A stretch of DNA of 64,000 nt from Umbilicaria muhlenbergii (Eukaryota > Ascomycota > Lecanoromycetes > Umbilicariales > Umbilicariaceae), in contig KK106986.1 in the NCBI GenBank assembly GCA_000611775.1, positions 372,001-436,000 on the forward strand, given 5' to 3'. The position numbers and the translations under genes are program-made. The notes beneath the pieces are model-generated. The model made no database searches. It saw nothing but the letters and a program-made list of their open reading frames with translations, and had not been told where the DNA came from. Positions 4,066-13,358 of the stretch are shown here, piece after piece (position 1 is the first letter of the stretch; every line of letters begins with the position of its first letter).

Positions 4066-7000
4066 ATGGAGCGGACGGAGACCAGGATGACCGAGGAAGG
4101 CGGTACCACCATCCTTCCTATCCCACCGCCACTCGAATTCCCATACCCTCGAACCAGTGCAGAGTCTTCTGCTCGCCCTAGCGTTGCTCAAGTTGACGCG
4201 ACTTCCCCGGTCACTAATGGTACTGCGGTCCTCACGACCCATGGCCCTACCGCTCCAGGAGTCGTTACGGAGATCGATTCATCGCGTCGGCCGTCCCTGG
4301 CAAAGCAGAAGTTCGTGACAGAGCGGCCGGCGTTGGCACCAAATGATTCGCTGCTGCGGATGAGAAGAGGGCACACGGGGATGCCGCCTGCCGCATTCAA
4401 CACCCAGGCTTGGAATTCAGACTCCGACTCCTCAAGTTCTTCTTCTTCTGAGGATGATAAAGCAGCGAGGCATACGAAAAGACGATTCAGAGGCAATAGA
4501 CACCAAGAAGGCGGCGCAGAGGCAGACAAGGCAAAGAATGTAGGGGGTACGAAAGCCAGGCGGGGCCCTGATAGTAATCCAGCTTACTCAAGATTCTCTG
4601 TGGGAAACGACAAATATAAGACCAAGGGTAGGGTGTCAAAAAGGGACGGCAGACTAAACATCAGCGTGAATGAGACGGCAAACAGCGGATACCTGGCCAA
4701 GGCGTTGGGAGCAACGCTACATAGGCACTTGGGTTCTCATAAAACCGAGGATGCGATTGATAGAGCAGAACAACCGCTGTCGCCATTACATGGGGAAAAC
4801 GATCCTCAAAGGCCTGGATTTTCGCGTGCAAGTACAGCTTCAACCGCTTCCACTTCTCCGTCGGTATATGATAGGCTACCGCTGCCTAAACTCAACATTG
4901 TCATTATGGTCATCGGGAGCAGGGGAGACATACAACCGTTTTTGAAGGTGGGCAAGCTGTTGAAGGAGCAACATGGTCACCGTGTCAGAATTGCAACCCA
5001 TCCCGCTTTCAAGAAGTTCGTCGAGCAGGACTCTGGTCTCGAGTTCTTCTCGATTGGAGGAGATCCAGCAGAACTCATGGCCTTCATGGTCAAAAATCCA
5101 GGGCTCGTACCCTCGGTTTCTACAGTCAGAGCCGGCGAGATTGGCCGCAGACGTGAAGCCATGCTTGAAATGTTTCAAGGCTTCTGGCGAGCCTGTATCA
5201 ATGCTACGGACGATGAGAAAGATATTGAGAACGTGAGAATGATGGGCGACAAGCATCCATTCGTGGCGGATGCTATCATTGCCAACCCACCATCTTTTGC
5301 TCATGTGCATTGTGCTGAGCGGTTAGGAATTCCATTGCACCTGATGTTCACATTTCCTTACAGTCCTACACAGCAATTCCCTCATCCACTGGCAAATATC
5401 AAGAGCAGTAATGTGGATACTAATTATGTAAATTTCATGTCATATCCGCTGGTTGAGATGATGTAGGTGTCTTCGCTACCATCAAAAGAGTTTCCATTGG
5501 CTGACTGTTCGCAGGACATGGCAAGGGCTCGGCGATCTGGTCAATCGCTTCAGAGTCAAGACGCTTGGTCTAGAACCTGTTTCCACACTTTGGGCACCTG
5601 GTCAGCTCTTTCGAATGAAGGTGCCGTACACTTACATGTGGTCCCCCGGCCTGATCCCGAAACCAGCAGACTGGGGCCCAGAGATCGACATCGCTGGCTT
5701 TGTCTTTCTTGATCTTGCATCATCCTTCAAACCACCTGAGACCCTCACGAAATTCCTAGAGGCTGGTGATCCACCAGTGTACATTGGCTTTGGAAGTATA
5801 GTAGTGGACGATCCCGATAAGTTTACTTCGCTCATCTTCGAAGCAGTGAAAAGAGCCGGTATCAGAGCCCTAGTCAGCAAAGGCTGGGGAGGTCTAGGCG
5901 ACGAAGGCAATACACCAGACAACATCTACATGCTCGAGAATACCCCGCATGACTGGCTCTTCCCCCGAGTCAGCGCAGTCGTTCACCATGGCGGTGCTGG
6001 GACTACTGCTATCGGACTCAAGTGCGGCAAGCCCACAATGATCGTGCCATTCTTTGGCGATCAGCCATTCTGGGGCGCCATGGTCGCAAGGGCAGGCGCA
6101 GGCGCCCATGCAGCAATTCCCTACAAGGAGTTGACTGCAGACAAACTCGCAGAAGGTATCAAGGAGTGTCTTTCCCCGGAAGCAAAAGAGCACGCCCAAG
6201 AGATCGCTCGTGATATCGCGGCAGAAGGAGATGGTGCTGCGAACGCTGTCAAATCATTCCACCGCAGTTTGCCTTTGCGTGGTGAACATTCGATGCGGTG
6301 CTCTATCTTAGACGACCACGTTGCTGTTTGGCAGCTCAAGCGAACTAATGTGAGACTCTCTGCACTTGCAGCAGACATCCTAGTCGAAAAGAAGAAGATT
6401 AAGTGGCAAGACTTGAGATTGATACGACACCACGAATGGAACGACTTTGAAGGTCCCGGGGAGCCGCTCACAGGTGGAGGAGCTGCTCTGGCTAATTCTT
6501 TGGCTGGGGTTGCAAAAGGGGTTGGTAGCACGCCATTCAGATGGGCCAAGAGTATTAAAAAGAAGGAGCAACATGATCAAAGGAAGAAAGAGAGGCAGAG
6601 TGCTGAGGTAGGGAGGAGGAACACATCAGAAAGAGCACCATCGCAACCTAAGCAGAATGGCCATGGTGGAGCGACGAAAGAGAACACCGGCGAACTTTCG
6701 TGTGGAGGTCAACATAGATGGGAGAAGAACCTGCCAGCAGGAAACGATATACAAGGTCGTAAAAAATTCGTAGCTGATAAGCAGAACAACGAAGTAGACG
6801 GCGGTGCAATCGGACCTAGGTTAAGTCGCCAGGATGGGGACAGCCTTGCAGAGGTGTCGGATGGTTCAGAAGACAATATTGCTGAAGAGATCGTCGCTGA
6901 TGCTGGGGCGGGTTTGTTTGAAACCGGCGAGGCTCTTGCGAAAGGTGAGATATTCCATTGCACCCGCGCGCACTTTCTTACCGGTAACTAAACATTGATA

Positions 7001-10852: not shown

Positions 10853-11030
10853 CTCCGCTGCATCCGTCGGATTCGGATCCGCTTATCGTAGGCTCTAAAG
10901 TTGACAGTAGTGCGTGTGGAGAAAATGGTAAGATGTGCCGATTAGGTATGGCGGTACGGTCCGAGGCAAGTAGGATGTGCCTTGCAGAAGAACGGACCCA
11001 AAATGCAGGTACAGAGGCTGAGCAATGCAC
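10812..11030 (-). promoter_or_regulatory. Possible upstream reading frame overlapping the wetA start
   Basis: An ATG at 11030 opens a 72-codon frame, out of frame with wetA, that passes the wetA ATG (10852) and stops at 10812. If the wetA transcript starts upstream of 11030, ribosomes using it would miss the wetA start. Upstream frames are known to regulate brlA in Aspergillus. For wetA this is inference, and the transcription start is unknown. Confidence 0.3.
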
Positions 11031-11111
11031 GATGATGGATCAAACAAACAAACAGACCAAGAGGAGTCATGTATTTATCAAGCTGGTACCCAGCCTCAAA
11101 ATTGGGGAGAA

Positions 11112-11699
11112 CATTCCGCGGCAGACATTTTCTAAGATTAGTGACACATTGGAATGTAGGGTATAATCCACACCGAGCCCTACTCGGTTGCTCGTGATGG
11201 GCGATATACCTTGTAGCAAACTGTTTGACAAATTCTCCATCCGGTAGATTGGACATTCCCGCGGCTCATTAACGCGGGGTGTTTTGACAAGTCAATGGCA
11301 GCCACACCGAGGAATGCTTACAGCCACCGGATTAAAACAAAGAGGCATAGCGTACATTCCAGCGCCTGTCCCGCAAAGAGTATAACGATAATGCGAATGA
11401 CATTGAGAACAAGAACCCGGCTAATATAGCTATGATAGAGAAGGTACTGAGTATATTCTCATAGAGCAAACCATGAATTTGGCACCTGTGGGCCGAAGGG
11501 AGCGGATCGTTTTTGTGGGACTGCGAGAACGAGAAGCGAGCAGTGGGGTATCGTAGAAAGGGGGGAAACAACTCCACCGCGAGGTAAAGCTTTTTGTGAG
11601 AGAGGAATGGAGCAAACTGTTGAGGAAGCAAGAGTGATCTAGATCACCAGCCTCAACTGAAAAGAGAAAGACGAGGAATGTTGTTACCAAAGACATTCC
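11112..11699. promoter_or_regulatory. Cluster of eight CATTCC (AbaA-type) elements upstream of wetA
   Basis: CATTCC on the plus strand occurs at 11112-11117, 11254-11259, 11355-11360 and 11694-11699. Its complement GGAATG occurs at 11151-11156, 11311-11316, 11604-11609 and 11675-11680. With equal base frequencies about 0.3 copies would be expected in 588 bases counting both strands. AbaA, a TEA/ATTS-domain factor, binds CATTCY and activates wetA in Aspergillus. The cluster lies 260-847 bases upstream of the wetA ATG. One BrlA-type element (AAAGGGG) is at 11557-11563, but a single short match could be chance. The rest of the 10853-12344 gap holds no gene that I recognise. Confidence 0.75.
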
Positions 11700-12344
11700 A
11701 CAGCCCCCCGAGTTCAAAGGAGGGCGCACCCAAGAGAACAATCAACGAGCACAGAAACGGATGACAAGAAGGCAGATCGAGATTGAGACTTTTTGAATAA
11801 TGAAAACATGAAAAGGGCATAAAGAGCCAAGGCATCGCGCAAACTGAAGGATGATGTTGCACTTTTGGCCAGAGGAAGCCTTCGGTGACGTTTCGCTACC
11901 ATTTCACTAATGCTTGCACGTCTCCGCGAACACAGTTATGCAGTAGTTGTGCAGTAGTTATGCACCCGAGGCACAGTACGAGGATTCCATTTACACTTGG
12001 CTTACTTTACACTACTCTACCTCGTAGGTTATAGCGATACTTGGAGTACAAAAGACGTTTACAATGATCACATGGTACTACACAACTAGCCTACTGGCAA
12101 ATTACCTAAGCAGTGCGATGCCTCTTGAGCCCTCGACGTCATGCCTTATGCCCCCCGAGGCTGGTTCTCGGTCAACTAGCGATGTAATGGGATTGCGGGG
12201 GTTGCTACCACCATACGGAAAGAAGCTCACAAGCAAAGACTACCACTACTGGTGGCAAGAGCTGATAAGCCATTGACTTTGCTGCTGAAGATAAGAAACG
12301 TTATGTCCGCATCAATCAGCCATTGACGCCATCGTAGTCGGTTG

Positions 12345-13358
12345 CTATACATCGAAATTCTGAACATCCGGCATCCTGCCCAATCCACCACCACCAGTTC
12401 CCTTGACACCCTGTGCCAGCTCCTTTCCTCCAACCTCCACCGTCGAGTGTTCATGTACACCTCCCGCACTCCGATCAATCACATGCTTCCTCAACATTGA
12501 GAGAATCTCACTGTTCTTCCACCGCTGCGGTACAGGCCGATAAGCAGGCTTGAACGTTCCCACCGTTTGTGCCCACTCCCCGCTTCTTGGCGCGCCTTTT
12601 CTCCACGCGTCGGTCTCAGACTTGTCCATGGCTTTGCCTTGAGCGGCAGGCGTGGAGATGTCAGGATTGCCGCCTTCTGCCGTCTCGTGCGAGGTGGGCG
12701 TAGGCTCTTGCGTCGCCCAGTAGTAGATATCCCAGTCATTCTCGTCAAGGAAGAGGTCGTATTGTTCGAGTTGTTTCACGCTCATGCGGGAGAGGTTGGC
12801 GTCGGCGAAGGTGGAGAGGAGGAGATCACTTTCGAGGGTTCCCCTCTTGCGGCTCTGATCTGCAGGTGGCATGGAAATGTCAGCTTGTGTAATGGTGGCA
12901 CGTAGAGTTGAACATAACGAACACAACAACCTAGCCCGCATAGTGTTGCCATCCTCTCCCGTCCGTCTCAGCGGCTCGACCTTGAATTTGGCTCCTTCCA
13001 TTTCACCGACCCCCAGCTCTGCGTTAGGGCCATCCTTTGGTTCACCGTTCTGAGTGCCACCGGTCATCTTTTCGGTGTTTTTTGGCACGGCATCTTCGGG
13101 AACGAACTGCTCGTCTACCGCGGAAAGCAATTCTGGTGGTGCCTTGTCGGCGCCCACACTTGGCATTTCATTCGTGATTGTGGAATTCGTATTGGTCATG
13201 TGAGGATTCAATGGCTTCGATTGCTGTTTCTCTCGCCATGCTGGTGCGGTGTCGTGCTCGCGCTCGTTGGCAAAGTTACGGGGTGCGGAGGTTGATAGAG
13301 GTCTGGCGATTCTCAAACAGGGTCGTATCGAACGTAGAGCTAGGCGGGTCGTCGACAT
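12345..13358 (-). CDS. sdh5: Succinate dehydrogenase assembly factor 2 (Sdh5/SDHAF2), mitochondrial, 316 aa
   Basis: There are two exons, 13358-12923 and 12859-12345, with a 63-bp intron at 12860-12922 that splits the Tyr codon in RLL/YQSRKRG. The join restores the family core: [16 protein letters not shown], then [18 protein letters not shown] (about residues 140-197). SDHAF2 proteins help insert covalent FAD into Sdh1 in the mitochondrial matrix. The N-terminus ([20 protein letters not shown]) is an Arg-rich presequence without acids. Compared with yeast Sdh5 (about 160 aa) this protein has a long N-terminal linker (residues 25-135) and a C-terminal extension past residue 200, both common in filamentous ascomycetes. 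The unspliced frame would insert 21 codons with no stop, so the intron is easy to miss. Confidence 0.92.

Follow-up and report, generated by a model that had tools for sequence, protein, structure and literature searches.

Eight CATTCC sites upstream of a wetA-like gene: a probable AbaA-responsive region

The window analysed here is a 64-kb stretch (C6:372001-436000) of a genome of 34.79 Mb (34,788,950 bases in seven contigs). Within 588 bases of it, from 11112 to 11699, lie eight copies of CATTCC, 260-847 bases upstream of the start codon of a wetA-like gene. CATTCY is the AbaA-response element (ARE); the original A. nidulans binding study was reportedly that of Andrianopoulos and Timberlake, 1994. 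Is this an AbaA-responsive upstream region, or have the sites gathered there without regulatory meaning? The initial annotation had given eight sites, four per strand, with start-to-start distances of 19 to 249 bases, and our motif search returned the same positions (Table 1). Every site is CATTCC; CATTCT is absent from the gap between the wetA-like gene and its upstream neighbor.

RESULTS

The wetA-like gene and its 5' flank

We tentatively take the candidate regulated gene to be wetA from its conserved C-terminal stretch GFVNFTPNDSKRILTGVAPSGSSKTKARREKE; no Pfam model matches the protein, and a literature search with the C-terminal string found no paper. The gene is single copy, a whole-genome search giving one match, itself. 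The next gene beyond the cluster (12345-13358, minus strand) encodes an Sdh5-family protein by Pfam, and since it too is on the minus strand, the gap serves as 5' flank to the wetA-like gene alone. No ORF of at least 120 aa lies wholly inside the gap. A short tandem repeat (11934-11964, period 11, 2.8 copies) is found between the cluster and the Sdh5 gene.

Table 1. Features of the wetA-like locus (window coordinates; lower-case letters are the bases flanking each core)
Feature	Position	Strand	Found by	Remark
wetA-like open frame, 562 aa	9164..10852	-	open-frame list	candidate regulated gene
Gap between wetA-like gene and Sdh5 gene, 1,492 bases	10853..12344	.		5' flank of wetA-like gene only
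ARE 1, aCATTCCg	11112..11117	+	motif search and flank reading	
CCAAT box	11148..11152	-	motif search	overlaps ARE 2, completes palindrome CATTGGAATG
ARE 2, aCATTCCa	11151..11156	-	motif search and flank reading	fits RMATTCCWD
CCAAT box	11248..11252	-	motif search	adjoins ARE 3
ARE 3, aCATTCCc	11254..11259	+	motif search and flank reading	
ARE 4, gCATTCCt	11311..11316	-	motif search and flank reading	
ARE 5, aCATTCCa	11355..11360	+	motif search and flank reading	fits RMATTCCWD
ARE 6, cCATTCCt	11604..11609	-	motif search and flank reading	
ARE 7, aCATTCCt	11675..11680	-	motif search and flank reading	everted close pair with ARE 8
ARE 8, aCATTCCa	11694..11699	+	motif search and flank reading	everted close pair with ARE 7

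The cluster against chance

CATTCC occurs 15,769 times in the genome (7,900 forward and 7,869 reverse), that is, 0.27 times per 588 bases; the initial annotation had given about 0.3 for equal base frequencies. By a Poisson estimate, clusters of eight in 588 bases should number about 0.0002 per genome. The Poisson model is reasonable for dispersed sites because, genome-wide, there are 32 everted and 29 inward close pairs on opposite strands, against about 43 expected of each. Close same-strand pairs are more frequent than expected (299, against about 86), and head-to-tail runs such as CATTCCCATTCC are numerous among the first 100 of them listed.

The window as a whole shows no enrichment of CATTCC (35 copies, against 38.2 expected from shuffling), and therefore the excess at wetA is local. 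Dinucleotide shuffles of the gap (n=3,000) gave a mean of 0.84 sites and a maximum of 5, and 3,000 runs of third-order Markov sequence, each of 1,492 bases, never placed more than four sites in 588 bases. The P value for eight sites in the 588-base stretch alone, 4.8e-10, is post hoc because the limits were drawn around the sites; for the whole gap P is 5.8e-7 (uncorrected), which ranks CATTCC as the most over-represented of 1,015 canonical hexamers there. The runner-up, ACATTC (P 1.1e-4), overlaps CATTCC. We conclude that the cluster is genuine and far exceeds what chance would give.

Our cluster scan covered 264 kb (0.8% of the genome): the window and twenty 10-kb stretches (L018-L037). Six of these stretches were chosen around abaA and velvet genes (see below), one adjoins the window, and the remaining 13 are dispersed, with ten of them in C1:100001-1910000. 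The background sample used for hexamer, flank and element counts includes the abaA and velvet stretches. A possible objection is that local composition, or a repeat, left the sites as a by-product with no regulatory meaning, and such counts do occur: eight non-overlapping copies within 588 bases are reached somewhere in the 264 kb by 89 different hexamers, and a tandem array elsewhere with units of about 155 bases holds nine CATTCC. However, of the 101 hexamer-place pairs that underlie those 89 hexamers, 67 fall in the AT-rich stretches L027, L030 and L034 and another 15 come from a single part of L032, whereas a tandem-repeat check places the wetA sites in no tandem array and their flanks are mostly unlike one another. 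The shuffles and Markov runs fall short of eight, and the flank bias and the abaA cluster described below are independent of the core count. We consider this origin of the cluster very unlikely.

The stretches L027, L030 and L034, each 10 kb, have a GC content of 0.34-0.39, against about 0.5 or more elsewhere. Two repeats in the gap, an inverted one of 15 bases (87%) around the sites at 11151 and 11355 and a direct one of 14 bases at 11212 and 11608, were judged likely to be chance.

The TEA factor and a second cluster

A whole-genome search with PF01285 (TEA), made in six frames and exon by exon, gave one match, C1:4155956-4156123 (E 1.6e-18). We tentatively take the gene to be abaA from its sequence and from its being the sole match. 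Its first exon and the following piece encode the stretch RKQVSSHIQVL; Pfam finds nothing in the first exon and TEA in the next exon piece. Its start codon is at position 5544 of L018, and upstream of it, at 5579-6191, lie six CATTCY, three of them CATTCC and three CATTCT. All are in gene orientation, and none of the six carries a leading A (ACATTCC).

In the 264 kb scanned, at least six CATTCY within 650 bases are found only at the wetA (8) and abaA (6) promoters, and at least four CATTCC within 650 bases only at wetA. Six CATTCY in 1 kb occur in 2 of 983 background windows, both in the abaA stretch.

Flanks of the sites

The flanks, which the initial annotation had left unused, provide evidence independent of the core count. 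Six of the eight wetA sites read ACATTCC, compared with 3,250 of 15,769 genome-wide (20.6%; P about 0.0015) and 19 of 118 in the smaller background sample. RMATTCCW is matched by five of the eight (22 of 118 in the background sample). The longer form RMATTCCWD, given as the single TEAD motif in extracts of PMC12008814, is matched in full by two of the eight. The flanks fit a TEA factor. In the same extracts animal TEAD has the same core and also prefers a purine before it.

A composite element, CATTCC(N)GCGG, is suggested by the sites at 11112 and 11254 and was rejected. It occurs at 89 places genome-wide; among the others listed, two have two copies close together, one in a long coding frame (L058) and one in the tandem array of about 155 bases (L059).

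Other CATTCC-rich places

Comparable density at many unrelated genes, which the initial annotation had named as evidence against its reading, was found nowhere in the parts examined, although these are a small share of the genome. Besides the pair at wetA, the genome has 31 everted close pairs; we examined 20 of them together with some 600 bases of each flank, and the most CATTCC seen there in 588 bases was four (L046, L049); L049 has five CATTCC in 650 bases and L040 five CATTCY in 588. Among the first 100 forward CATTCC listed (C1 to 412 kb) at most three fall in 588 bases, a tandem run, against four at wetA; among the first 100 forward ACATTCC listed (C1 to 1.94 Mb) the maximum is one, again against four. 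The tandem array L059 (C1:4651000-4652300) has nine CATTCC in 1.3 kb but at most four in 588 bases and five in 650. Its units measure about 155-157 bases, most with one CATTCC, and it is not a promoter-type cluster. Density of CATTCC by itself is not specific, as this array illustrates.

The same 26 bases, which include an everted CATTCC pair, are present at C1:2544333-2544358 and, in the opposite orientation, at C7:121487-121512; the two are probably copies of a dispersed repeat.

The genome also has velvet-domain genes, which we tentatively label veA, vosA and velB from N-terminal sequence. The kilobase upstream holds three CATTCC for veA, two for vosA and about one for velB, whose start is uncertain. 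Background windows with at least three CATTCC per kilobase number 13 of 983, and two of the 13 belong to the veA stretch itself, so that veA is slightly out of the ordinary and vosA and velB are not.

Spacing and neighboring elements

The initial annotation had called control by the cluster probably cooperative, and this part is not supported. The spacings are irregular: ARE 7 and ARE 8 form an everted pair 19 bases apart (11675, 11694), and the others range from 39 to 249. The TEAD double motif, a direct repeat with an offset of 9 according to extracts of PMC12008814, is absent, the best partner at plus or minus 9 from any wetA site matching 5 of 7 letters; in this the wetA-like promoter differs from the animal TEAD motifs. 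That AbaA reads the sites mainly as a fixed-geometry cooperative array is suggested by the everted pair, one of 32 genome-wide, but such pairs do not exceed expectation, and with the missing double motif and the remaining spacings we find this reading highly improbable. The multiplicity is more likely explained by higher occupancy of many sites that act independently and tolerate varied orientation and spacing than by a fixed-spacing cooperative dimer.

The initial annotation had also described an imperfect inverted pair of sites, CATTGGAATG. The site at 11151 is present, but the other half starts at 11147 rather than 11146 and reads CATTGG, not CATTCY. What the string (11147-11156) contains is one CATTCC site and, next to it, a CCAAT box read on the gene strand. 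The gap has a third CCAAT box, at 11101, and three against 2.77 expected is no enrichment. Of the BrlA element (MRAGGGR) the gap has one copy (1.41 expected) and of the StuA element (WCGCGWNM) none (0.95 expected). The WetA response element, CCGYTTGCGGC in extracts of PMC6106085, matches at no more than 8 of its 11 letters within 10853-12352, while one strand of the window has 20 places that score at least 9, and the sequence upstream of the wetA-like gene gives no sign of wetA autoregulation through this element.

DISCUSSION

We propose that the cluster is very probably an AbaA-responsive upstream region of wetA. AbaA, the sole TEA/ATTS-domain factor found, would bind the eight AREs during conidiophore development; binding would raise wetA transcription, and conidium maturation would start. 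AbaA probably also acts on its own gene via the six-site cluster. Of the direct, cooperative control first suggested, the direct part gains backing from the single TEA match, the TEA-type flanks and the second CATTCY cluster at abaA.

The cluster fits a known arrangement, because extracts of the Fusarium graminearum paper (PMC3769392) report multiple CATTCY in the abaA and wetA promoters, as in A. nidulans and A. fumigatus. The likeness extends to the motif, the same two promoters, multiple sites in each and the presence of a TEA factor. Here there are eight sites, all CATTCC, within 588 bases, and we do not claim that this is denser than in F. graminearum or the Aspergilli. According to the same extracts, 30% of F. 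graminearum genes (4,156 of 13,820) have one CATTCY or more in the 500 bases upstream, and the element being this common, single sites say little. The wetA cluster is a clear, site-rich member of an arrangement already described in other molds.

Alternatively, AbaA might repress wetA here, or another factor might use GGAATG. The sequence gives no sign of the direction of regulation, and the abaA promoter sites lack the leading A; against this stand the one TEA match in the genome and the lower wetA transcript of an F. graminearum abaA deletion reported in extracts of PMC3769392. We give this alternative hardly any credence.

Velvet genes are AbaA targets in some other fungi, according to extracts of PMC3457981 and PMC8557821. 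In Metarhizium robertsii AbaA is reported, in the title of PMC8557821, to interact with the wetA and veA promoters, and the methods of that paper describe a one-hybrid assay with a wetA fragment of about 645 bases; the three CATTCC upstream of veA may be set beside this. For A. nidulans velB and vosA, extracts of PMC3457981 describe CATTCY sites bound by GST-AbaA in gel shifts, whereas the corresponding genes here have few sites.

With AbaA activation of wetA as the preferred reading, a more speculative idea, and one that we think more probably wrong than right, is that the wetA region is the genome's densest dispersed AbaA-site cluster and acts as a count-based threshold element. wetA would then come last and demand more AbaA than any other step, its timing set by how many sites there are and not by how they are spaced, beside an abaA gene that sustains itself through its six-site cluster. 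That abaA and wetA stand out as CATTCY clusters from sequence alone is in line with conserved spore-maturation wiring. The wetA cluster opens no new kind of system, but its site-rich promoter is a good place for asking whether site number sets wetA timing.

Elsewhere in the window, at 4066-6991, two plus-strand open frames match a family 28 or UDP-glycosyltransferase, one its N-terminal and the other its C-terminal part; they are probably a single gene interrupted by an intron or a frame break.
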